This document shows positions 8 to 23,828 of a stretch of 64,000 bases of DNA, one piece after another; position 1 is the first letter of the stretch, and each line of letters starts with the position of its first letter. Origin of the DNA: Lachnospiraceae bacterium (lineage in GTDB: Bacteria > Bacillota > Clostridia > Lachnospirales > Bianqueaceae); NCBI GenBank assembly GCA_022794035.1, contig JAAWDX010000003.1:248001-312000 (forward strand), given 5' to 3'. The position numbers and the translations under genes are program-made. Below the pieces are notes generated by a model. It saw only the letters and a list, made by a program, of their open reading frames with translations, searched no databases and was not told the origin of the DNA.

Positions 8-724
8 ATGTGGAAAAAAATATGGAGCTGGATGCAAAAGAAAATCGGTAAAAAGAAAGAGGGAGGCGTCTATTACATAGGAGGCAGCGAGGTTTTGCCG
101 GCTCCCATGACGGCCGAAAAAGAAAAATACTGGTTATCGCATTTGAAAGAGGGAGATCCACTGGCCAAACAGGCTAAGGATATGCTGATTACTCATAATT
201 TGCGGCTTGTCGTATATATTGCCAAGAAGTTTGAAAATACGGGAATTATGGTTGAGGATCTGATTTCAATTGGAACGATCGGGCTGATGAAGGGCGTTAA
301 TACATTTAATCCGGAAAAGAACATTAAACTAGCGACCTATGCATCGCGCTGTATTGAAAATGAAATTCTGATGTATCTCCGGCGCAATCAAAAAACGCGC
401 TCGGAGGTGTCGATTGATGAGCCGCTCAACATGGATGTCGACGGAAATGAGCTGCTTCTTTCGGATATATTGGGGACGGATAATGATGTGATTTCCAGAG
501 GATTGGAAGATGAAATTGACCGTCAGCTGCTGCAGGAATCCATGAAGATTTTAGGCGGCCGGGAGAAAAAGATCGTACAGCTGCGGTTTGGACTCGGAAG
601 TGACGGAGAAGAAAAAACGCAAAAAGAAGTAGCGGACATGATGGGAATCTCGCAGTCCTATATTTCCAGATTGGAAAAGAAGATTATGAAACGGCTATAT
701 AAGGAAATGAAGCGATTGCTATAA
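8..724 (+). CDS. sigE: Sporulation sigma factor SigE (pro-sigma-E)
   Basis: Mother-cell sigma factor of sporulation, 238 aa, the usual family length. The N-terminus is a short basic/amphipathic pro-sequence followed by [12 protein letters not shown], the region where SpoIIGA processes pro-sigma-E. Region 2 ([17 protein letters not shown], then [14 protein letters not shown]) and the region 4 helix-turn-helix ([20 protein letters not shown]) are intact. The processing protease SpoIIGA is expected just upstream, outside the window. The ATG at 8 follows AGGTAGA at the window edge. Unusually, the stop overlaps the 3' end of convergent sigG by 6 bp; in Bacillus and most clostridia sigG follows sigE on the same strand. 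SigK is the nearest alternative, but the pro-region and partner gene favour SigE. Confidence 0.95.
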
Positions 725-1486
725 ATATTTTCGCATTTGCTTTAAAGCATTTTTTTCGATGCGTGATACCTGCGCCTGGCTAATGCCGATTTCAGAAGAA
801 ACCTCCATTTGCGTATGGCCCTGGAAGAAACGCAGATTTAGGATTTTTTGTTCACGGTCAGAGAGCTTTTTCATGGCTTCATTGATCGAGAGCTTTTGCA
901 GCCACTGCTCGTGGCTGCTTTTTTCATCCTGAATTTGATCCATTACATATAAAGCGTCTCCATCTTCATGAAATACAGGCTCATACAAGGAAATAGGATC
1001 TTGAATGGCATCGAGCGCCAGAACAATGTCTTCTTTGGGAAGCTCCATTTCCTTGGCGATTTCCTCTAGCTTTGGTTCTTGTCCGTTTTTTCTGGTCAGC
1101 TCCTCTCTTACGCGCAGTGCGCGGTAGGCGGTGTCGCGCAGGGAGCGGCTTACACGAATGGAATTATAATCCCGTAAAAAGCGCCGCAGCTCTCCTAAGA
1201 TCATGGGCACGGCATAGGTGGAGAATTTGACCTGTTGCGATAAGTCAAAATTATCGGTAGCCTTGATCAGACCGATGCATCCCACCTGAAACAGGTCGTC
1301 GGCCTGCTCGCCGCGTCCAGTGAAGCGCTGGATGATGCTGAGTACCAGACGAAGGTTGCCCTCGATGAAGGTTTGTCTGGCCTGCTCATCTCCTTGTTTG
1401 ATCTTTTCAAACAGGGCAAGCTTTTCTTCATGCGTGAGCACAGGGAGCTTAGCGGTGTTCACACCGCAGATTTCTACTTTATTCAT
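719..1486 (-). CDS. sigG: Forespore sigma factor SigG
   Basis: Late forespore sigma factor, 255 aa. The N-terminus [17 protein letters not shown] is the SigG signature. Region 2 ([39 protein letters not shown]) and region 4 ([25 protein letters not shown]) are complete. It is antiparallel to sigE and overlaps it by 6 bp at the 3' ends. A sigma-F-like promoter lies about 50 bp upstream on the minus strand, as expected for a gene switched on by SigF in the forespore. SigF is the closest paralogue, but it lacks this N-terminus and normally sits in the spoIIA operon. Confidence 0.95.
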
Positions 1487-10679: not shown

Positions 10680-10682
10680 ATG

Positions 10683-10720
10683 AAACCGGCATTTCTTTTT
10701 GAAGAGATGCCGGTTTGTTT
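10683..10720 (+). terminator. Rho-independent terminator after the hydrolase cluster
   Basis: 15-bp stem AAACCGGCATTTCTT (10683-10697) with 10702-10716, loop TTTG, one G-U pair, then GTTT. It separates the hydrolases from the ABC exporter. Confidence 0.85.
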
Positions 10721-10765
10721 ATGCATGCGGACACCCAAAGGGACTATAAGAGTCACTGGAAAATC

Positions 10766-10779
10766 GTTGCGATCGCAAC
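10766..10779. promoter_or_regulatory. 14-bp perfect palindrome upstream of the ABC exporter promoter
   Basis: GTTGCGATCGCAAC is perfectly self-complementary and ends 8 bp before the -35. It is a likely operator for an unlinked regulator. Confidence 0.45.
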
Positions 10780-10787
10780 ATTTTATA

Positions 10788-10816
10788 TTGACAGGCTGTG
10801 TAAAAAGAGGTATCAT
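10788..10816 (+). promoter_or_regulatory. Sigma-A promoter of the ABC exporter operon
   Basis: TTGACA (10788-10793), 17-nt spacer, TATCAT (10811-10816). Confidence 0.75.
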
Positions 10817-10853
10817 TATTAACGTGATTTTAAAAAGGGAAGGAATGATACGG

Positions 10854-12587
10854 ATGGTGATCAAGAAATTCTTGAGAAAGTACGGATGGCTGTACATACC
10901 CGGTATTGTGTTTTTGGCGATTAATTCGCGGATTCAAACGCTGGCGCCGGAGGCTTTGGGAAAGGCCATCGATTTGTTGGAGCAGGCGGTGCCGGATAAA
11001 AACCTGGTCTGGAGGCAGGCGGGTCTTATCATATTGATTGCGGTTGGCGTGTTTGTGACACGATTTATCTGGCGGATGATGATTATCCGCAATGCCAGAT
11101 CGATGGAGTGCTTTCTGCGCGAGGAGCTTTTTGCGAAGCTGCAGAGCATGCCGATCTCCTTTTTTTCTAAACAGCGTTCAGGCGATCTGATGGCCTATGC
11201 GATCAATGATGTCGGGGCGGTGCGTATGACCTTTGGACCGGTGCTGGCGCAGGGACTGAACGGGATTATCACAGGCGGGCTTTCCATATGGGCGATGACA
11301 AAAGCCGTGGATGGGAGGCTTACATTTTTGGCCTTAATTCCGGTGCCGATTGCGATTATTTCTATTATTTTGATTGGCAATCTGGTGCAGAAACGTTTCC
11401 GCAGAGTACAGGAACTATTTTCTCATCTTTCTGGATTTGTGAATGAGTCCATTATGGGCGTGCGTGTAGTGAAGACCTTTGCCAGAGAAAAGGAGTGGCA
11501 GCACGAGTTTGAGACCACATCTACTGAGATGATGCAGGCCAATGTAAAATTGACGGATACGTCGGCATTGATCAACCCGATTACGGTGATTACATTTGGG
11601 CTAAGCTATGCGGTCAGCTTAATCTATGGCGGCGGACTGGTCATGAGTGGTTCTTTGGCGCTAGGGGATCTGGTGGCCTTTCTGGGGTATCTACTGCTGA
11701 TTCAGAATCCGGTGGTACAGCTGGGACGAATTGTCAATATGCTGCACCGCGGTATTGCATCCTATAAGCGCTTAAGTGTGATTTTTAATGAGGAGAGTAT
11801 TCCCGAAAAGGAAATGCAGGAATACGACAGACCGATTGACGGTGCGATTGAAGCACGGAATCTGACCTTTACCTATCCGGATGCGGATAAGCCTGCACTG
11901 GAGAATGTTAGCTTTAAGCTGCCGGCAGGCGGGACGCTGGGCATTGCCGGAAAAACGGGCGGCGGCAAGTCAACGCTGATTGGGCTTTTGCTTAAGTTCT
12001 TTGATGCGCCGAGAGGTACGTTGTTTATTGATGGAAAGGATATCTGCGATATTCCGGCCAAGGCACTGCGGGAAGCGGCGGGCTATGTGCCGCAGGATGG
12101 CTTTTTGTTTTCAAGCTCTATTGAGCAGGATATTGCGTTCTATATGCCTAAGGTTGGGCGCAAGGAGGTACGGCAGGCCGCAGATTTGGCTAATATTGAC
12201 GAAGATATCAGCGCTTTCCCGGAAGGGTATGATACGCAGGTGGGCGAACGGGGAACGCGGCTTTCCGGAGGGCAGAAGCAGAGAATTTCTTTGGCGCGTG
12301 CACTGATTCGGGATCCGCAGATTCTTATTTTAGACGACACGCTGTCGGCTGTGGATAATATTACCGAAAAAAAGATTGTAGAGAATATTCATGGAGTGCT
12401 GCGTGATAAGACTTCTATCGTGATTAGCCACCGGCTGTCAGCGCTTCGCAGATCGGACTGGATTTTGTTTATGGAGGATGGCAGAGTGATTGAGGCAGGC
12501 ACGCATGAGCAGCTTATGGCCAAGCAGGGAGCGTATGCCGAGACCTATGAAAAGCAGTCAAAGGAGGATGAGCAGCATGAAGAATAA
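10854..12587 (+). CDS. ABC exporter half-transporter, subunit 1 (non-catalytic Walker B)
   Basis: Membrane exporter subunit, 577 aa: six N-terminal membrane segments, then an ATPase domain. Walker A is GKTGGGKST, signature LSGGQKQR is canonical, but Walker B reads LILDDTLSAVD, with Asp in place of the catalytic Glu. This is the hallmark of one half of heterodimeric exporters such as BmrCD, TmrAB and TM287/288. ATG 10854 is preferred over 10845 because AAGGA at 10840-10844 lies 9 nt upstream. It overlaps subunit 2 by 11 bp. The substrate (drug, lipid or peptide) cannot be inferred. Confidence 0.92.
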   Translation: MVIKKFLRKYGWLYIPGIVFLAINSRIQTLAPEALGKAIDLLEQAVPDKNLVWRQAGLIILIAVGVFVTRFIWRMMIIRNARSMECFLREELFAKLQSMPISFFSKQRSGDLMAYAINDVGAVRMTFGPVLAQGLNGIITGGLSIWAMTKAVDGRLTFLALIPVPIAIISIILIGNLVQKRFRRVQELFSHLSGFVNESIMGVRVVKTFAREKEWQHEFETTSTEMMQANVKLTDTSALINPITVITFGLSYAVSLIYGGGLVMSGSLALGDLVAFLGYLLLIQNPVVQLGRIVNMLHRGIASYKRLSVIFNEESIPEKEMQEYDRPIDGAIEARNLTFTYPDADKPALENVSFKLPAGGTLGIAGKTGGGKSTLIGLLLKFFDAPRGTLFIDGKDICDIPAKALREAAGYVPQDGFLFSSSIEQDIAFYMPKVGRKEVRQAADLANIDEDISAFPEGYDTQVGERGTRLSGGQKQRISLARALIRDPQILILDDTLSAVDNITEKKIVENIHGVLRDKTSIVISHRLSALRRSDWILFMEDGRVIEAGTHEQLMAKQGAYAETYEKQSKEDEQHEE

Positions 12588-14322
12588 GCAGGAAAAAAGT
12601 TCTAGCCTAGTGCGTCTGGCGCTTTTGATGAAGCCCTATATTGGCAAGCTGCTGATCTGTATGTTATGTGTGATTGTGGTGAATCTGGCAGAGCTTTTGA
12701 AGCCATATGTGGCGGCCATTGTGATCGATAATTTTTTGGTGGGCACTACGGAGCAGAGCGGCTTGTTTTCTATTACCGGCATGGGCATATTGTATTTTGC
12801 TGTGGCGCTGGCCGGCGCGCTCTTTTCTATGACACAGGTGAGGCTGATTGCCCGTATATCGCAGGGGATTCTGAACGAAATGCGGCAAAAGGTATTTAAT
12901 AAGATCATGCATATGCCGATGAAGCTGCTGGACCGTTATGGCACAGGACGTTTGATTACACGAGCGACCAATGATGTGGAAACGGTAAATGAATTTTATT
13001 CTGATGTATTTTTGAATCTATTTAAGGATGTATTTTTGCTGCTGGGAATTTTGGTTATGATGCTGATCATGGATCCCCATCTGGCGCTGGCGGCATTTAC
13101 GGGTGTACCGCTGATTGTGCTCCTTACATTTTCTCTTAAGAAGATCATCAAGCGTAATTTTAAGCGCATGAAGCAGATCATCGGACAGATCAATGGATTT
13201 TTTGCAGAAAACATATCAGGCATGCGGATTGTGCAGGCTTTTAACCGGCAGAAAAATAAAATGGATGAGTTCCAGGAGCTGAATCAGGCATATTTTAAAA
13301 CAACGATGACACAGGTGTTTTTAAATTCGTTTCTGAGGCCGACTATGGAGGTCATCAATAATCTTGTGATTGCGCTGCTGATCGTCTATGGATTTGGCAG
13401 GATTACCGGAGGCTTGCTGGAGGTTGGCGTGCTGTACGCATTTACAAACTATGTTAAACAGTTTTTTGAGCCAATCAATGATTTAGCGGAGAAATATACG
13501 ACGATTCAGTCGGCACTGGTCTCAACCGATCGTATCTATGAAATTTTAGATGAGACGGATATTGAGGATCCGGAAGCGGGCGCGCACGGCGGCCCGGTAA
13601 AAGGAACGGTTGAGTTTAAGGATGTTTGGTTTGCATATCAGGATGAGGATTGGATCCTGAAGGGTATCAGCTTCAAGGTAGAGGCTGGCCAAAAGGTGGC
13701 TTTTGTCGGACATACTGGCGTGGGCAAATCTACGATTATCAACCTGATCAGTCGTTATTATGCGATTCAGAAGGGACAGATTTTGGTAGACGGCGTTCCG
13801 GTGGAGGACTGGAAGCTGAGGGACCTGCGTCAGGGAGTATCCACAGTACTGCAGGATGTGTTTCTCTTCACGGGGGATATCGCTGAAAACCTGGATATGC
13901 ATGCGGGTCTTACCGAGGAGCGCATGGAGGATGCACTGGAGGTTTCGGAAGCGTCGGATTTCATCCATGATCTTGGCGGTTTGAGCAGTGCGGTGACGGA
14001 ACAGGGACTCAATTTCTCTACAGGACAGCGGCAGCTGCTTTCATTTGCAAGAGCCATTGCCCATGATCCAGCCATTTTGGTGCTGGATGAGGCAACAGCG
14101 CATATTGATACAAATACGGAAGAGCTGATCCAGCAGTCGATTGAAAATATTTCCCAGGGACGGACTTCCATCTTTATTGCGCATCGGTTATCTACGATTC
14201 AAAATTGTGATGTTATTTTTGTCTTGGTTGATGGACAGGTAGCAGAGCAGGGAACACATGATGAACTATATGCACTGAATGGGGTATATACCAATCTGAT
14301 TCAGGCACAGGTAGAGGAATAA
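12577..14322 (+). CDS. ABC exporter half-transporter, subunit 2 (catalytic Walker B)
   Basis: Partner of the preceding gene, 581 aa. Walker A GHTGVGKST, Walker B LVLDEATAHID with the catalytic Glu, and H-loop FIAHRLS are intact, but the signature is degenerate: FSTGQRQ instead of LSGGQ. It complements subunit 1, so the heterodimer has one complete ATP site (this Walker A/B with subunit 1 signature) and one degenerate site. ATG 12577 lies 9 nt after AAGGAGG (12561-12567). A terminator follows. Confidence 0.92.
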   Translation: MKNKQEKSSSLVRLALLMKPYIGKLLICMLCVIVVNLAELLKPYVAAIVIDNFLVGTTEQSGLFSITGMGILYFAVALAGALFSMTQVRLIARISQGILNEMRQKVFNKIMHMPMKLLDRYGTGRLITRATNDVETVNEFYSDVFLNLFKDVFLLLGILVMMLIMDPHLALAAFTGVPLIVLLTFSLKKIIKRNFKRMKQIIGQINGFFAENISGMRIVQAFNRQKNKMDEFQELNQAYFKTTMTQVFLNSFLRPTMEVINNLVIALLIVYGFGRITGGLLEVGVLYAFTNYVKQFFEPINDLAEKYTTIQSALVSTDRIYEILDETDIEDPEAGAHGGPVKGTVEFKDVWFAYQDEDWILKGISFKVEAGQKVAFVGHTGVGKSTIINLISRYYAIQKGQILVDGVPVEDWKLRDLRQGVSTVLQDVFLFTGDIAENLDMHAGLTEERMEDALEVSEASDFIHDLGGLSSAVTEQGLNFSTGQRQLLSFARAIAHDPAILVLDEATAHIDTNTEELIQQSIENISQGRTSIFIAHRLSTIQNCDVIFVLVDGQVAEQGTHDELYALNGVYTNLIQAQVEE

Positions 14323-14768: not shown

Positions 14769-14797
14769 TTGACAGATTACACAGATGGGATTATAGT
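14769..14797 (+). promoter_or_regulatory. Sigma-A promoter of the TetR regulator gene
   Basis: TTGACA (14769-14774), 17-nt spacer, TATAGT (14792-14797), 27 bp before the ATG. Confidence 0.75.
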
Positions 14798-14823: not shown

Positions 14824-15381
14824 ATGCCTAATTTCACTCAAATGGCAATTAAAAAAACATTTATAAAGCTTCTAAACGAGAAACCGCTGAATCAGATTAC
14901 GGTCAAGGACATTGTAGAGGAGTGCGGGATTAACCGTAATTCATTTTATTATCATTTTCAGGATATTCCGGCATTGATAGAAGAAATTGTGACAGAGGAG
15001 GCAGACCGGATTATTTCTAAGTATCCCTCGATTGATTCCTTGGAGATCTGTTTGAATGCTGCCGTTGATTTTGCTACGGAGAATCGGCGGGCCATTCTGC
15101 ATATTTACCACTCGGTCAATCGGGCTGTATTTGAACAGTACCTGTGGAAGGTCTGTCGTTATATAGTGGCAACCTATGGTGCAACTGTGTTTAAGGATAA
15201 GCCGGTGAAGGAGGACGACCGGCAGCTAATTCTTCGTTTTTATGAGTGTGTCTGCTTTGGCATGGTAATCGACTGGATGAACGATGGCATGCCGGAGCGT
15301 GTTCATCAGCAGATTAGCCGTTTATATGAGCTAAAAAAAGGAATGATTGAGGAAATGATTCAGAGAAGTCTGCAAAAATAA
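14824..15381 (+). CDS. TetR-family transcriptional regulator
   Basis: Regulator of 185 aa with an N-terminal TetR helix-turn-helix (ITVKDIVEECGINRNSFYYHFQDIPALIEEI). The C-terminal helical domain, with FYECVCFGMVIDWMNDGMPE, resembles that of DhaS-like TetR proteins. ATG 14824 follows AAGGAGGG (14811-14818). It has its own promoter and terminator and precedes the DUF308-MMPL-xxxLxxG genes on the same strand. That arrangement suggests it represses this efflux module, which is inference. Confidence 0.87.
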   Translation: MPNFTQMAIKKTFIKLLNEKPLNQITVKDIVEECGINRNSFYYHFQDIPALIEEIVTEEADRIISKYPSIDSLEICLNAAVDFATENRRAILHIYHSVNRAVFEQYLWKVCRYIVATYGATVFKDKPVKEDDRQLILRFYECVCFGMVIDWMNDGMPERVHQQISRLYELKKGMIEEMIQRSLQK

Positions 15382-15401
15382 ATGGATAGATTGATCGATT
15401 T

Positions 15402-15452
15402 GACACCGGACATGAATGTGTTAGGCATTTATGCTCCGGTGTCTATTTTTTA
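15402..15452 (+). terminator. Rho-independent terminator after the TetR gene
   Basis: Interrupted stem: GACACCGG (15402-15409) pairs with CCGGTGTC (15436-15443), with inner CATGAATG/CATTTATG pairing, followed by TATTTTTT. Confidence 0.75.
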
Positions 15453-15504
15453 GTCAATTTTGGCAGCATGACCGGTTTTTCAGCATCGGGCAGAATCTGT
15501 CCGT

Positions 15505-15532
15505 TTGAAAAGAGGGAAGGCTTTGGTATAGT
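15505..15532 (+). promoter_or_regulatory. Candidate promoter of the DUF308-MMPL operon
   Basis: TTGAAA (15505-15510), 16-nt spacer, TATAGT (15527-15532). Confidence 0.6.
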
Positions 15533-15563
15533 AATCGCATACTTGAAAAAAGGAGGGTTTACC

Positions 15564-16160
15564 ATGAAAATGAGGTCGGTTGCCCCTATGCGGGCCGCTA
15601 AGATTGGCTATATCGTGATGTCGGTTTTCTTTTGTATCATGGGAATATGGATGATTGTTTACCCGCAGATTTCTATGCAGGTCATGGCAAAGGTGCTGGG
15701 AATGGGGCTGCTGCTTTTTGGCTGTATCCGGCTGATAGGGTATCTGTCGAAGGATCTGTTTAGGCTGGCCTTTCAATATGATTTGGAGTTTGGCATTCTG
15801 CTGATCCTGCTGGGACTCATTGTGCTGATCAAGCCGGGCAATGTGGTGAATTTCATTTTCATTGCAATTGGGATTGCCGTTTTCACAGAAGGGCTGTTTA
15901 AAGTACAGATTGCGCTGGATGCTAAGCGCTTTGGCATCGAGACTTGGTGGCTTATTTTTGCGCTTGCTGTCGTGACGGCACTGGCAGGAGGCGTTATTAT
16001 GTTCCGCCCTGCGGCGGGAGCGCAGATGATGACGGTGCTGCTGGGGATTTCCCTGCTGACGGAAGGAATTTTGAATTTCTGCGTTGTGCTGAGTACGGTG
16101 AAGATCGTTAAGCATCAGCAGCCGGATGTGGTGGAATGCGAATATTATGAGATCAAATAA
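15564..16160 (+). CDS. DUF308 (HdeD-like) membrane protein
   Basis: Small integral membrane protein of 198 aa with about six hydrophobic segments arranged as repeated hairpins (GYIVMSVFFCIMGIWMIVYP; LEFGILLILLGLIVLIKPG; WWLIFALAVVTALAGGVIMF). This is the HdeD/DUF308 pattern. ATG 15564 follows AGGAGGG (15551-15557); an upstream extension lacks a ribosome site. It starts 16 bp before the MMPL transporter, so is probably co-expressed. The molecular role of DUF308 proteins is not settled; HdeD itself is linked to acid resistance in E. coli. Confidence 0.82.
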   Translation: MKMRSVAPMRAAKIGYIVMSVFFCIMGIWMIVYPQISMQVMAKVLGMGLLLFGCIRLIGYLSKDLFRLAFQYDLEFGILLILLGLIVLIKPGNVVNFIFIAIGIAVFTEGLFKVQIALDAKRFGIETWWLIFALAVVTALAGGVIMFRPAAGAQMMTVLLGISLLTEGILNFCVVLSTVKIVKHQQPDVVECEYYEIK

Positions 16161-16176
16161 AGAGAGGATGAAACAA

Positions 16177-18276
16177 ATGCATTTTTCAAAAGCGGTTGTC
16201 CGGTACCGCGTTCCGATTTTAATCTTGGCGCTTTTGCTGATGATTCCTTCTGTTTTGGGAATGGCGGGCACCCGGATCAATTATGATATGCTGGATTATC
16301 TGCCGGAGGACATGGATACCATTGTGGGGCAGAATGAATTGATGGAGGAGTTTGGCAAGGGCGCTTTTTCGTTTATTATTATGGAGGATATGCCGGAGCA
16401 GGAGGTGGCGGCGCTTAAGAAAGAGATCGAGCAGGTGGCACACGTGGAAAGCGTGATCTGGTATGATTCTTTGGTGGATCTTTCGGTTCCGATGGAGCTG
16501 CTGCCGGATTCGATCTACCGTGAGTTTAATACGGAGCATTCGACCATGATGGCTGTCTTTTTTGACAGCTCTACATCGGCGGATATCACGATGGATGCGA
16601 TTCGTTCGATCCGAAGCCTTTGCACAAAGCAGTGCTATGTTTCGGGGATGTCGGCTCTGGTTACGGATCTGAAGGATCTGTGTGAAAAGGAAGAGCCCAT
16701 TTATGTGGGGATTGCGGTAGCGCTGGCCTGTGCGGCGATGCTGCTCTTTTTGGATAGCTATCTGGTGCCCTTTGTGTTCTTGGCATCCATCGGCATTATG
16801 ATTCTGATCAATCTGGGATCGAATTATTTTATGGGAGAAATTTCCTATATCACAAAGGCGCTTTCTGCTGTGCTGCAGCTGGCAGTGACCATGGATTACT
16901 CGATCTTCCTGTGGCACAGCTATAATGAGCAGAGGGAAAAGACGGCTGATGCTAAAGAGGCGATGGCTGTCGCCATTCAGGAAACACTGACCAGTGTGCT
17001 GGGCAGTTCGATCACCACGGTGGCTGGATTCATTGCGTTATGCTTTATGTCCTTCACGATGGGCAGAGATCTGGGTATTGTCATGGCTAAAGGGGTCTTG
17101 CTGGGTGTGATCGGGTGTGTTACGGTGCTACCGGCTCTGATTTTGGTGCTCGATACGCCGCTGCAAAAAACAAAGCATCGTTCCCTGATTCGCGGCTTTG
17201 GAAAAACGGCCAAGGGCGTCGTTAAAATTTTTCCGCTATTTCTGGTGATTTTTGCTGCTCTTATACCGCCTGCGTACTATGGCTATCAGAAAACCAATCA
17301 GGAGGTATACTATGACATGGGAGAGTGCCTGCCTCAGGATATGGAATATGTGATTGCCAATTCAAAGCTGAAGGAAGAGTTTAATATTGCCTCTACGCAT
17401 ATGATTTTGATTGACCGCGGCACGAGTGCCAAGGAGATTCATCAGATGACGCAGGAGATGGAGCAGGTAGAGGGCGTGAAATATGTACTCAGCCTGGAGT
17501 CTATTGTAGGCAGCCGGATTCCAGAAGAGATGATCCCCGATTCGATAGCCGGGATTCTAAAAAGCGATCGCTGGGAGCTCATGCTGATCAATTCGGAATA
17601 TAAGGTTGCCGGCGAAGAGGTGAATGAGCAGATCAACCGGCTGAATGAAATTTTGAAGCGATATGATGAGGGTGGCATGCTGATTGGAGAAGCGCCCTGT
17701 ATGAAGGATATGATCGAAACTACCGACCATGATTTCAAGGTCGTCAATATAATATCCATTTTGGCAATCTTTTTCATCATTGCACTGGTAGAAAAGAGCG
17801 TTTCGCTGCCCTTCATTTTGATCGCGGTGATCGAGCTGGCTATCTTTATTAACCTGGGGCTGCCGCATTATCTGGGACAGAGTCTTCCGTTTATTGCGCC
17901 GATCTGTATTAGCACGATTCAGCTGGGAGCCACAGTCGATTATGCCATTTTGATGACCACGCGCTATAAAGCGGAGCGGCTTGGCGGAGCAGATAAAAAG
18001 GAGGCCGTGCATACCGCACTGCTAACTTCCATCCCTTCCATCATTGTATCAGGAATGGGACTTTTCGCCGCCACCTTTGGCGTCGCTGTCTATTCCAATA
18101 TTGATATCATTAGCTCGATGTGCATGCTGATGGCCAGAGGAGCCGTAGTCAGTATGCTGGCTGTTATCTTTATTTTACCGTCGCTACTGCTGCTGTGCGA
18201 TAGAGCCGTATGCGCGACCACATGGGGCATGAGAAAATTGAGTAAACATTCTAAACGCAATCAGGAGGCAATCTAA
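16177..18276 (+). CDS. MMPL/RND-family transporter
   Basis: Large efflux-type membrane protein, 699 aa, with two halves of the same build. Each half has one membrane helix, an extracytoplasmic domain of roughly 150 residues, and a five-helix block (DSYLVPFVFLASIGIMILINLG in the first; SLPFILIAVIELAIFINLGLP in the second). Acidic residues within TMDYSIFLWH and ATVDYAILMT fit proton coupling in RND pumps. ATG 16177 lies 9 nt after GAGAGG. MMPL proteins export lipids or hydrophobic compounds in actinobacteria; the substrate here is unknown. The next gene encodes a secreted coiled-coil protein and starts 2 nt after the stop. Confidence 0.88.
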   Translation: MHFSKAVVRYRVPILILALLLMIPSVLGMAGTRINYDMLDYLPEDMDTIVGQNELMEEFGKGAFSFIIMEDMPEQEVAALKKEIEQVAHVESVIWYDSLVDLSVPMELLPDSIYREFNTEHSTMMAVFFDSSTSADITMDAIRSIRSLCTKQCYVSGMSALVTDLKDLCEKEEPIYVGIAVALACAAMLLFLDSYLVPFVFLASIGIMILINLGSNYFMGEISYITKALSAVLQLAVTMDYSIFLWHSYNEQREKTADAKEAMAVAIQETLTSVLGSSITTVAGFIALCFMSFTMGRDLGIVMAKGVLLGVIGCVTVLPALILVLDTPLQKTKHRSLIRGFGKTAKGVVKIFPLFLVIFAALIPPAYYGYQKTNQEVYYDMGECLPQDMEYVIANSKLKEEFNIASTHMILIDRGTSAKEIHQMTQEMEQVEGVKYVLSLESIVGSRIPEEMIPDSIAGILKSDRWELMLINSEYKVAGEEVNEQINRLNEILKRYDEGGMLIGEAPCMKDMIETTDHDFKVVNIISILAIFFIIALVEKSVSLPFILIAVIELAIFINLGLPHYLGQSLPFIAPICISTIQLGATVDYAILMTTRYKAERLGGADKKEAVHTALLTSIPSIIVSGMGLFAATFGVAVYSNIDIISSMCMLMARGAVVSMLAVIFILPSLLLLCDRAVCATTWGMRKLSKHSKRNQEAI

Positions 18277-18278
18277 TC

Positions 18279-20483
18279 ATGAAAAAAGGAATAAAAAGAA
18301 AAGTGGCGCTGGGGCTATGCGCGGCTGTCATGCTTAGCGGCATGCAGGCTCCGGCTTTAATGGTCGGCGCAGCGCAGGAAAAAGAAGAGCCACAATCAAG
18401 TGTGTCAAAAGAGGAAACGGTATATATTTTGACGGAAGCAGATGGCAGCATGCAGGATGTCATCGTCAGCGACTGGCTGAAAAATCCGCAGAAGGCAGAT
18501 ACGATCTCAGAACGGTCGGATCTGACAGAAGTAGAAAATGTAAAAGGAGACGAGACCTATACAGACGAAGCCGGACATGTGCGCGTTTGGAACGCGGGAG
18601 GCAAGGACATCTATTATCAAGGGAGAAGTGAGCAGACACCTCCTATTGCTCTTTCCGTCAGCTATGAACTGGACGGAAAGCCGATTTTACCGCAGGAGCT
18701 GGCAGGAAAAAGCGGCAAGGTGCGTATTCGCTTCACATATACCAACTCGCAGTATGAAACCGTGGATATCGATGGTAAAAAAGAGAGAGTCTGCGTTCCC
18801 TTTGCTGTACTGACAGGCATGATTCTTGATGACGAGGTCTTTCATAATGTAGAGGTAATCGGCGGAAAGCTCGTCAACGATGGCAGCCGCACCGCAGTCG
18901 TCGGCATTGCCTTCCCGGGAATTCAGGAAAGTCTGCAGCTGCCAGAGCAGGCTGCCGGGCTTCCCAGTACGCTTGAGATCACAGCCGATGTAGAAAACTT
19001 TGCGATGGGCATGACGCTTAGCATCGCAACCAATGAAGTTTTCAATCAGATTGATATCCAGCAGCTGGATTCCATAGAGGATCTAAAAGGTTCTCTGCAG
19101 AAGCTGACAGACGCTATGGATCAGCTGATCAATGGCTCTTCTGACCTTCGTGAGGGTCTGCGCACCTTATCTGAAAAATCCGGTACGCTGGCAAACGGCG
19201 TAGATCGTCTTACCTCCGGCGCATCTGCGATTCACAGCGGCATGAAGGAGCTTGCGAGCGGCGCAGAAAAGCTCTATGAAGGCGCTTCCAGATTGCAGGA
19301 GGGACTGGATACACTGGTCAGTAACAGCAGTCAGCTGACAGCAGGAGCGGCGCAGGTGTTCCGCACTTTGCTCGATACAGCGGCTGCGCAGCTGCAGGAA
19401 GCCGGGCTGTCTGTGCCGGCTATGACGATAGAAAATTATGCAGATGTTTTAAACGGCATCATCAATTCATTGGATGAAGCAGCCGTATATCAGCAGGCGC
19501 TGTCGCAGGTCACTGCTGCGGTGGAGGCTAACCGCGCGCAAATTATAGCGGCCGTGCAGGATACGGTTAAGGAGACGATTCGCGCCAAGGTCTGCGAGGC
19601 GGCAGAACAGACCGTCACAGAGCAGGTCACGCAGACTGTATATGAAACCGTGAAGGATCAGGTGATCCTGGCTGCGACCGGTCTGGATAGAGCTGCCTAT
19701 GAAGCCGCCGTTTCTGCAGGCAGCATTACCGAGGAGCAGCAGTCACAGATTGCCAGCGCAGCTGAGGCGCAGATGCAGACAGAGGATGTGCAGCAGAAAA
19801 TAGCTGTCGCCGTCCAGCAGCAGATGGCCAGTGAAGAGGCAAAGGCCATGATAGAAGGACAGATCGCAGCACAGCTGCAAAGCGACGAAGTGCAAAGTCT
19901 AATCGCGCTGCAGACAGAGGCGCAGGTGCAAAAGCTCATAGCAGACAATATGGCAAGCGATGCCGTACAAAGCCAGCTGGCAGCCGCCTCCGAAGGAGCA
20001 AAGGCAGTCATTGCCCTGAAAAGTTCATTAGACAGCTATCATGCCTTTTATTTAGGACTGTACGCCTATACGGCAGGAGTGGCAGAGGCAGCAACGGGCG
20101 CAGGAGAATTAAAAACAGGAGCTGAAAGCCTGAAGACAGGAGCCGGCGCTTTAAATCAAGGTACAGGAGAGCTTTATAACGGCTTGGTTACGCTGCAGGA
20201 CTCTGTACCGGCACTGTTAAGCGGAATTTCACAGCTTTTAAATGGCTCAGCACGCCTTGCGGACGGAATCAAGGAATTAAATGAAAAGGGGATTGAAAAG
20301 CTGATCGGTGCCTTAGATGATCCGGAAAAAGTAGGAGATGTTTCGCTGCTTTTGAAAAGGATCAAAGCAGGCTTAGAGCTGTCAAAAGAGTATCAGTCCT
20401 TTTCAGAAATAGATGAAAAGATGGAAGGAAAGGTGAAATTCATTTATCGTACGGAAGGGATTGAGATTAAGAAGGAATCGTAA
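18279..20483 (+). CDS. Secreted xxxLxxG-repeat coiled-coil protein, MMPL partner
   Basis: 734-aa exported protein. A signal peptide (VALGLCAAVMLSGMQAPALMVGAA) is followed by a beta-rich N-domain to about residue 250. Next come two arrays of leucine-glycine heptads (LANGVDRLTSGASAIHSGM; LKTGAESLKTGAGALNQG) as in YhgE/Pip proteins, separated by a long Ala/Gln/Glu-rich helical stretch (about residues 400-590). Unlike YhgE/Pip it has no C-terminal membrane segments. Its position right after the MMPL gene suggests an extracytoplasmic helper of the pump. ATG 18279 follows TCAGGAGG. A terminator follows. Confidence 0.82.
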   Translation: MKKGIKRKVALGLCAAVMLSGMQAPALMVGAAQEKEEPQSSVSKEETVYILTEADGSMQDVIVSDWLKNPQKADTISERSDLTEVENVKGDETYTDEAGHVRVWNAGGKDIYYQGRSEQTPPIALSVSYELDGKPILPQELAGKSGKVRIRFTYTNSQYETVDIDGKKERVCVPFAVLTGMILDDEVFHNVEVIGGKLVNDGSRTAVVGIAFPGIQESLQLPEQAAGLPSTLEITADVENFAMGMTLSIATNEVFNQIDIQQLDSIEDLKGSLQKLTDAMDQLINGSSDLREGLRTLSEKSGTLANGVDRLTSGASAIHSGMKELASGAEKLYEGASRLQEGLDTLVSNSSQLTAGAAQVFRTLLDTAAAQLQEAGLSVPAMTIENYADVLNGIINSLDEAAVYQQALSQVTAAVEANRAQIIAAVQDTVKETIRAKVCEAAEQTVTEQVTQTVYETVKDQVILAATGLDRAAYEAAVSAGSITEEQQSQIASAAEAQMQTEDVQQKIAVAVQQQMASEEAKAMIEGQIAAQLQSDEVQSLIALQTEAQVQKLIADNMASDAVQSQLAAASEGAKAVIALKSSLDSYHAFYLGLYAYTAGVAEAATGAGELKTGAESLKTGAGALNQGTGELYNGLVTLQDSVPALLSGISQLLNGSARLADGIKELNEKGIEKLIGALDDPEKVGDVSLLLKRIKAGLELSKEYQSFSEIDEKMEGKVKFIYRTEGIEIKKES

Positions 20484-20498: not shown

Positions 20499-20546
20499 AA
20501 ATTCCCTCTTTACTGGATAGTCCAGCAAAGAGGGAATTTTTATATT
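20499..20546 (+). terminator. Rho-independent terminator after the efflux module
   Basis: Perfect 13-bp stem AAATTCCCTCTTT (20499-20511) with 20527-20539, then T-rich sequence. Confidence 0.85.
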
Positions 20547-20613: not shown

Positions 20614-20913
20614 ATGGCTACAAAAAGCGCAAATGTACTGGCTCGTGTTGAACCAGAAATAAAGGAACAAGCTGAATCTATCATGTCCAAACTTGGATTG
20701 CCCGCTTCGGTTGTTATCAATGCACTATATAAGCAGATCATTATGACTGAAAGTATTCCTTTTTCACTGTCGTTGCCGAAAAAACCTGCTACACTAGATT
20801 CTATGGATACAGAAAAATTTAACTCCATTATGAAAAAGGGATTGGCACAAGCTGAATCAAATCAGTCACGTCCTATTGCTGATGTTTTTGCGGATTTAAG
20901 ACGGGAAATATAA
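20614..20913 (+). CDS. RelB/DinJ-family antitoxin, orphan
   Basis: 99-aa protein with the ribbon-helix-helix start typical of RelB/DinJ antitoxins (ATKSANVLARVEPEIKEQAESI, then KLGLPASVVINALYKQI) and a C-terminal toxin-neutralising tail (PIADVFADLRREI). ATG 20614 follows AAAGGTGG; an earlier in-frame ATG at 20596 overlaps the ribosome site. These antitoxins normally precede a RelE/YafQ RNase toxin by a few bases. None is present here: the following 280 bp hold only a methyltransferase fragment. It may be a decayed pair or an orphan regulator acting on a toxin elsewhere. Confidence 0.83.
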   Translation: MATKSANVLARVEPEIKEQAESIMSKLGLPASVVINALYKQIIMTESIPFSLSLPKKPATLDSMDTEKFNSIMKKGLAQAESNQSRPIADVFADLRREI

Positions 20914-23231: not shown

Positions 23232-23828
23232 ATGGATAGCATTTGGAGTAAAATCGAGAAAGTTGCAGAAGAAAATAATGGCTTTATAAAAACAAGTGCA
23301 GTTGAAGCTGCAGGAGTCAGCAGACCGATGCTTCGTAAATATATGAAGAATGGAAGACTGGAACAAATTCGTAAGGGGTTATATATTTGTGCAGACGATC
23401 TTGCCGATGAATTTGCTATGCTGCAACTACAGAGCACAAAGGCTATTTTTTCTTATGGAACAGCATTATATTTATGGGGATTGTCAGATCGTATACCACA
23501 TAAATTCGATGTAACAATACCGCAGGGTACGAATATTAGCCGGCTTAAAAGAGACAATCCAAATATCCGATGTCATTATGTGAAACGAGAAGTATACGAT
23601 ATGGGAATAAGTGAGGTTCGGTCGCCTCAAGGTGCCATGGTACGCTTATATGATAAGGAACGTTGTATATGTGATTTGATTCGGGATAAAGATAAAGTGG
23701 ACATTCAGATATACACACAGGCAATAAAAGAGTATTTTAATACAAAACCTGACAAGCGTAAGCTTTTGAAATACAGCAGGATTCTTGGGGTTGAAGCTAA
23801 AGTCAGAATCTATATGGAGGTATTATAA
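23232..23828 (+). CDS. AbiEi antitoxin / transcriptional repressor (type IV toxin-antitoxin)
   Basis: 198-aa AbiEi-family protein. The N-terminal winged helix reads GFIKTSAVEAAGVSRPMLRKYMKNGRLEQIRKGLY. The C-terminal domain has FSYGTALYLWGLSDRIPHKFDVTIP. AbiEi antitoxins repress their operon and counter AbiEii without direct protein binding. ATG 23232 lies after TTGGAGGCA. The stop overlaps the toxin start by one base (TAATG). The pair is more A+T-rich than its neighbours, in keeping with horizontal gain. Confidence 0.9.
   Translation: MDSIWSKIEKVAEENNGFIKTSAVEAAGVSRPMLRKYMKNGRLEQIRKGLYICADDLADEFAMLQLQSTKAIFSYGTALYLWGLSDRIPHKFDVTIPQGTNISRLKRDNPNIRCHYVKREVYDMGISEVRSPQGAMVRLYDKERCICDLIRDKDKVDIQIYTQAIKEYFNTKPDKRKLLKYSRILGVEAKVRIYMEVL

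Follow-up and report, generated by a model that had tools for sequence, protein, structure and literature searches.

An MMPL pump gene and the gene of a secreted protein with a predicted base and hairpin, a possible adaptor-like partner, travel together in Clostridia

The mycobacterial pump MmpL5 carries a 196-residue coiled-coil insertion in its second loop (PMC12501195), and this insertion forms a 125-Å hairpin that is stabilised with the beta adaptor MmpS5 (PMC12346298). In Gram-positive bacteria, YknX is an adaptor with a hairpin that works with an ABC transporter (PMC4446572), and the Staphylococcus aureus MMPL-type pump FarE, under the TetR-family regulator FarR, confers resistance to antimicrobial fatty acids, with FarR being needed for expression and not a simple repressor (PMC10019231). 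Here we describe a locus in a 64-kb window (the whole stretch of DNA analysed, on contig JAAWDX010000003.1 of a Lachnospiraceae bacterium; all coordinates without a locus or record name are window positions), in which an MMPL pump gene is followed by the gene of a secreted xxxLxxG protein that we call SEC:

16177..18276, + strand: MMPL (RND superfamily) pump, 699 amino acids (Pfam; start by ribosome-binding site)
18279..20483, + strand: SEC, secreted partner, 734 amino acids, with xxxLxxG heptads (reading frame, repeat model, structure model)

We think it reasonably probable that SEC is a dedicated extracytoplasmic partner of the pump, adaptor-like, which supplies an exit hairpin in trans. The kinds of component are already known, and we found no description of an insertion-free MMPL pump with a separate secreted base-plus-hairpin partner; among the openly available journal papers listed, covered by titles and the starts of abstracts, none was found about a pair of this type.

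The initial annotation had proposed co-occurrence of the two genes as a test of the pair, and within the Clostridia the pairing holds, as SEC was never found away from MMPL where upstream DNA is present. Among 147 genomes of the class the SEC base profile matches 42 places in 40 genomes (the MMPL profile matches 71 genomes), and MMPL lies directly upstream on the same strand at 42/42 of these places. Named genome contigs gave at least 592 pattern matches, at least 587 of them relatives; 80 of these loci were kept, most of them in Clostridia metagenome bins and a few in isolates, Acetatifactor muris (L107) among them, and MMPL is directly upstream in all 78 that are evaluable, L095 and L081 having SEC at a contig edge with the upstream DNA absent. 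The two collections, which may share species, thus hold 42 + 78 = 120 evaluable SEC places. A further set of 58 related genomes has a SEC match in 15, with G033 set aside for its weak coil-only match and lack of an adjoining MMPL, and here MMPL or a contig-cut end is directly upstream of SEC in 14/14 loci outside the window (the window's genome and 13 more). Counted in reverse over the 147 genomes, SEC stands beside 40/42 clade MMPLs, defined by a cut-off of 582 bits or more; 45 MMPL places were entered (without the long two-piece class, other RND-type proteins of low score and the fragment G153:C166), and the removal of three more fragments (G089 twice, G153:C169) leaves 42, including the contig-cut G163. 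In one of the two exceptions, G059, a SEC broken by frame changes lies beside an intact MMPL (L131:2500-4000, − strand). The two genes most commonly overlap by 4 nucleotides (20/75 measured gaps, longest-frame starts), and in the window they are separated by the 2 nucleotides originally reported, the MMPL stop ending at 18276 and the next ATG lying at 18279. A broader draw of 199 phylum genomes has SEC in 21; the family is common but patchy. Because both genes travel together so consistently, MMPL and SEC probably work as one machine.

These counts also bear on an improbable rival, in which SEC would be an independent surface or wall protein (a stalk, adhesin or wall organiser) whose gene merely lies behind MMPL. 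The top VIA row of the window SEC model is the enterococcal stalk PrgA (Z 11.7, but with a root-mean-square deviation (rmsd) of 55.7), and the variable length of SEC would suit such a protein; however, MMPL is missing at 0/120 evaluable SEC places, 99 SECs contain no LPXTG by pattern, and a second MMPL class, described below, shows the same kind of arrangement, there with a fusion and with a partner unrelated to SEC. A free-standing adhesin was rejected because MMPL is upstream at every evaluable SEC place.

The neighbouring genes are less constant than the pair. TetR, DUF308, MMPL and SEC had been described together as a module, of which the MMPL-SEC part is strict, but of 58 close loci with enough upstream DNA a TetR gene is present in 46, DUF308 in 40 and both in 33. 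The 14 loci from the wider set of related genomes have a TetR-type gene flagged nearby, on either strand, in 12 cases, and DUF308 was detected in none of them.

Matches to MMPL and to the SEC base also lie side by side in Subdoligranulum variabile OY725868.1 (270784-273707), a 305-kb record in a plasmid collection. A tblastn search of the base against phage records returned SEC-like genes in six unannotated faecal 'Bacteriophage sp.' contigs, including MT837600.1; these contigs are probably bacterial DNA.

The pump gene matches Pfam MMPL (4e-55) in two stretches, one per half, and its product has 12 membrane helices, hydropathy giving 13 hydrophobic stretches of which we read the last two as one helix. 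The outer loops comprise residues ~31-173 (143 residues) and ~367-519 (153 residues), and a coiled-coil hairpin insertion is not present in the second (loop of 153 residues, whole protein of 699). Of the solved chains, those of MmpL4 and MmpL5 match the pump best (E 3.6e-17 and weaker); membership of the MmpL4/MmpL5 class was rejected because the second-loop hairpin insertion is missing. In the source genome, which is 98% complete, the clade MMPL profile matches once and neither it nor the Pfam model found a second MMPL, as two of the three Pfam matches are the halves of the window pump and the third lies in a protein that looks, by eye, like SecD. Two acidic-aromatic pairs occupy the expected membrane positions:

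16894..16899, + strand: Asp240-Tyr241 in transmembrane helix 4 (TM4), proton-relay position (Asp in 14/14; Tyr in 13/14, Phe in 1/14)
17938..17943, + strand: Asp588-Tyr589 in TM10, proton-relay position (both residues in 14/14)

Going by work on MmpL3, we take these Asp-Tyr pairs to be the proton relay.

SEC was modelled with AlphaFold2 as the window protein (14 sequences; predicted local distance difference test (pLDDT) 75.9; predicted template-modelling score (pTM) 0.44) and as a shorter homologue, L044, ~30% identical to it (30 sequences; pLDDT 83.4; pTM 0.53). The predicted anatomy of the window protein is as follows:

18279..18377, + strand: signal peptide, about residues 1-33 (hydropathy, model; cleavage site by eye)
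18405..19046, + strand: beta base domain, residues 43-256, mu-homology-domain-like (model, pLDDT ~88)
19074..19400, + strand: hairpin arm 1, residues 266-374 (model, heptads)
19416..19418, + strand: Pro380, likely the hairpin tip; no other proline occurs between residues 229 and 644
19437..19949, + strand: middle helices, residues 387-557, an addition at the tip that is absent in L044 (models)
19968..20315, + strand: hairpin arm 2, residues 564-679 (model, heptads)
20424..20453, + strand: C-terminal strand, residues 716-725, which belongs to the base domain (model)

The long helical stretch recognised at the outset is predicted in both models as a hairpin, with arms of 109-135 residues. L044 follows the same plan with a beta domain (28-233), a helix (246-359), a short turn, a second helix (365-499), a strand (511-520) and a small C-terminal helix. 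The fold match of the base extends over the N-terminal domain and also takes in the final strand (35..727 in the window SEC, 19..522 in L044). In the models the hairpin thus interrupts the base immediately ahead of its last strand, and SEC would in this respect resemble periplasmic adaptors, whose base is likewise divided by a helical hairpin. The adaptor analogy of the initial annotation is supported as to shape (base, hairpin and return to base, in two predicted models).

In close homologues the reach of the first arm appears fixed, a proline lying exactly 120 residues past the base in 64/77 of them; a measurement of the second arm by prolines was dropped, as the C-terminal anchor pattern failed in 10/77 close rows and was loose in others. 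An alpha helix rises 0.148 nm per residue. By this geometry an arm of 109-120 residues would extend 16-18 nm, or ~17 nm, and the earlier description of the partner as wall-spanning may therefore hold only in part.

Both models point to a resemblance of the base to the mu-homology domains of AP/COPI coats (Foldseek E 7.0e-6 for the window SEC and 2.1e-7 for L044, probability 1.00; VIA Z 11.4 in either case, with rmsd 4.1 across 191 residues for the former and 3.6 across 193 for the latter), which we treat as a likeness and not as an assignment because the target template-modelling (TM) scores are only 0.39 and 0.44, with ~10% identity, between predicted models and their targets. The likeness is one of predicted fold; unlike the coat domains SEC is secreted, bacterial and interrupted by a hairpin before its last strand, and a relationship is unproven. 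No match to the mu-homology Pfam family was obtained in 14 SEC members at E<=0.1, and a base-domain profile run against solved structures listed only PilQ, at E 0.11. HlyD-type adaptors and MmpS are not among the fold matches listed, which excludes nothing. For the arms, an SMC coiled-coil arm ranks first among the matches (L044 model; Z 14.3, rmsd 4.7 across 236 residues).

The heptads that gave SEC its description are confirmed by a family scan, in which the NCBIfam repeat TIGR03057 scores 2.4e-21 over 7 stretches (74.9 bits against a cut-off of 18.6) and the only two other names are weak and unrelated. Arm 1 holds 9 L-x-x-G/N heptads and arm 2 holds 7, and within either arm they keep one 7-residue phase; counting in-phase L-x-x-G alone, residues 259-370 hold 8 (maximum 3 in 10,000 shuffles) and residues 591-672 hold 7 (maximum 4 in shuffles). 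The heptads are not due to chance. Equally, the earlier description of a secreted protein with a signal peptide and without the membrane helices of YhgE/Pip proved correct, as a single hydrophobic signal stretch is present with no other convincing membrane helix, and a weak hydrophobic stretch at residues 171-189 sits within predicted beta strands. YhgE/Pip proteins have xxxLxxG heptads and a TetR gene nearby. SEC shares both features with them, but it was rejected as a member of that family because no YhgE/Pip model is listed for it at E<=1, in a library that includes such models, and because the C-terminal membrane helices are missing. No HlyD, lipoyl or barrel domain is listed on SEC by Pfam at E<=1, and SEC was on this ground also rejected as a HlyD-type adaptor by sequence. 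SEC members also match SMC, Rad50, Mce and actII models, which we read as generic coiled-coil similarity.

Compared with MmpL5-MmpS5, our locus is alike in having an MMPL pump, a long antiparallel hairpin outside the membrane, a beta partner and, in many relatives, overlapping genes, and in the predicted reach of its hairpin (~17 nm versus 125 Å); it differs in that their hairpin is an insertion in the pump itself and MmpS, a beta protein, is anchored in the membrane (PMC12501195, PMC12346298), whereas here SEC holds both base and hairpin. AcrA, HlyD and YknX likewise set base domains and a helical hairpin beside a pump, so that the likeness of SEC to them lies in the way of working; in contrast to these adaptors, SEC has no HlyD-type Pfam family listed at E<=1, its predicted base is mu-homology-like and its pump is an MMPL. 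FarE/FarR shares with our locus a TetR-family regulator and a Gram-positive MMPL-type pump, but the words 'adaptor', 'coiled' and 'periplasmic' are absent from the main text of PMC10019231.

Even if the gene linkage reflects dedication to the pump, SEC may be a partner of another kind. In one reading, which we consider unlikely, it would be a lipid carrier, chaperone or wall anchor and not a conduit, its base binding the exported molecule on receipt from the pump and its hairpin only holding the base in the wall. The linkage data (42/42 and 78/78) fit this equally; moreover the base is conserved while the coil varies in length and sequence (SEC relatives span 511-1136 amino acids), 11/99 SECs carry a lipobox pattern, and the fixed proline position recurs in only 1/20 more distant members. 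It would also accommodate two divergent SECs, L146:4952-6895 and L150:4835-7021, which by eye keep base and coil with almost no xxxLxxG (1 match each, by a looser pattern), from which it follows that the motif is inessential to the SEC architecture. Against this reading, the last strand comes back to the base and close homologues keep their arm length constant (64/77), which suggests that reach matters. The window SEC was rejected as a lipoprotein or sortase substrate, as it has no lipobox by eye and LPXTG occurs in 0/99 SECs (1-2 contig-cut SECs being omitted from these pattern counts and from the proline counts).

A second, longer MMPL class, present in 20/147 Clostridia genomes, offers a parallel. 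In 10 of the 11 loci retrieved (L133, L134, L136-L142 and L148; for example L140:4992-7436, + strand) the MMPL gene is followed, on its own strand, by a gene for an unrelated secreted protein in which GLUG-type repeats surround a long coiled coil, the coil being recognised by eye; L135 has no such partner beside its MMPL, and L136 has its partner divided between two frames. Pfam scans of two partners put one above the GLUG cut-off and the other slightly below it, and GG-x-x-G motifs flank the coil on both sides in 8/10, the other two being truncated where the locus ends. One genus has pump and partner as a single stop-free open frame of 1916-2016 residues in 5/8 genomes (G120, at L139:2797-8001, + strand; G200, G201, G202 and G203); of the other three, one has pump and partner on different contigs and two have no pump match, and a sister genus has the two in separate frames. 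On a Monoglobus pectinilyticus plasmid record the gene after the long-class MMPL is annotated 'hypothetical protein'. By analogy, this case supports the general rule that monoderm MMPL pumps may act with a coiled-coil partner on the outside.

If SEC is an adaptor-like partner, its beta base would sit on the outer domains of the pump and its hairpin would project ~17 nm outward into the wall, so that SEC would replace in trans the exit hairpin that MmpL5 carries itself, and perhaps also the MmpS-like clamp supplied by MmpS5. Protons would drive the pump through the Asp-Tyr pairs, and the pump would take an amphipathic molecule (a fatty acid, bile acid, lipid or lipophilic drug) out of the membrane and pass it to the hairpin assembly, probably of three SEC copies, which would serve as a path or as an arm handing it off into the wall. 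The TetR regulator might free the operon once the substrate appears. That SEC is itself the cargo of the pump is very improbable: the genes are adjacent and, by inference, co-transcribed, but SEC carries a signal peptide of its own. MMPL pumps are known to transport lipids and small molecules. Such substrates, for example the fatty acids of FarE (PMC10019231), speak against a protein cargo.

A number of observations weigh against the adaptor-like reading and should be set beside it. The overall pTM of both models is low (0.44 and 0.53), the TM-scores of the base are modest, and helical matches of Z 10-14 carry little weight, as long coiled coils give them easily. The proline is shared by only 1/20 of the more distant members, and arm length is therefore constant only among close relatives. 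At the level of genes, G114 has a clade MMPL without any partner, and co-divergence does not single out MMPL-SEC, since over 37 loci the Spearman correlation with MMPL is 0.56 for the SEC base and 0.75 for the SEC coil against 0.66 for DUF308 and 0.42 for TetR, which is not clearly above the DUF308 neighbour. The natural pump-partner fusion concerns the GLUG class and is no direct evidence for SEC. A monoderm has no outer membrane that would obviously need a conduit, and the contact of SEC with the pump, its stoichiometry, its role as conduit, the substrate and the regulation are what we infer from the arrangement. Even so, we tentatively entertain a wider proposal, that MMPL pumps may have gained a long exit hairpin repeatedly, within the pump (MmpL5), as the separate mu-homology-like SEC, and as a separate or fused GLUG protein, in which case SEC could be the founder of a new family of adaptors that build, in trans, a helical conduit or delivery arm across the wall of monoderms.

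Long extracytoplasmic parts of RND-superfamily pumps are usually explained by an outer membrane that has to be reached. A two-gene unit as widespread in Clostridia as this one (at least 587 relatives) suggests that long helical arms serve MMPL pumps in Gram-positives too, here as a separate protein. As the SEC hairpin is separate it can be removed, shortened or swapped with the pump untouched, and its role is thus directly testable. The unit may also matter for the tolerance of gut bacteria to bile acids and fatty acids.

Reading frames and family scans find the four genes, TetR, DUF308, MMPL and xxxLxxG protein, where the initial annotation had placed them. Besides the pump and SEC the locus contains:

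14769..14797, + strand: promoter-like site ahead of TetR, TTGACA-17-TATAGT (consensus match only)
14824..15381, + strand: TetR-family regulator with TetR_N and TetR_C_8 (Pfam; start by ribosome-binding site, open frame from 14803)
15402..15443, + strand: terminator-like hairpin then T run, 3' of TetR (−27.4 kcal/mol, z −6.59)
15505..15532, + strand: promoter-like site before DUF308, TTGAAA-16-TATAGT, preceded by TG (consensus match only)
15564..16160, + strand: DUF308/HdeD-like membrane protein (Pfam DUF308 4e-15; start by ribosome-binding site)
20499..20539, + strand: terminator-like hairpin with T run, 3' of SEC (z −5.96)

The regulator matches TetR_C_8 at 8.4e-18 and TetR_N at 8.9e-9. Because strong hairpins flank DUF308-MMPL-SEC, one of them 3' of TetR and the other ending SEC, TetR is probably a separate transcript and DUF308-MMPL-SEC probably one transcript with its own promoter, which is placed by consensus match. 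These operon borders, like the anatomy of SEC, are predictions: a consensus scan allowing loops of 3-8 listed neither terminator, so that both (15402-15443 and 20499-20539) rest on folding-energy z-scores, and the sites of that scan are no commoner than in shuffles (5 vs 5.3). Directly upstream of the module lie two adjacent ABC exporter half-transporters (10680-14322, + strand), and directly after the operon a RelB-type antitoxin gene (20614-20913, + strand; Pfam 1.9e-8), with an AbiEi-type antitoxin gene at 23232-23828 (+ strand; Pfam 1.8e-9).

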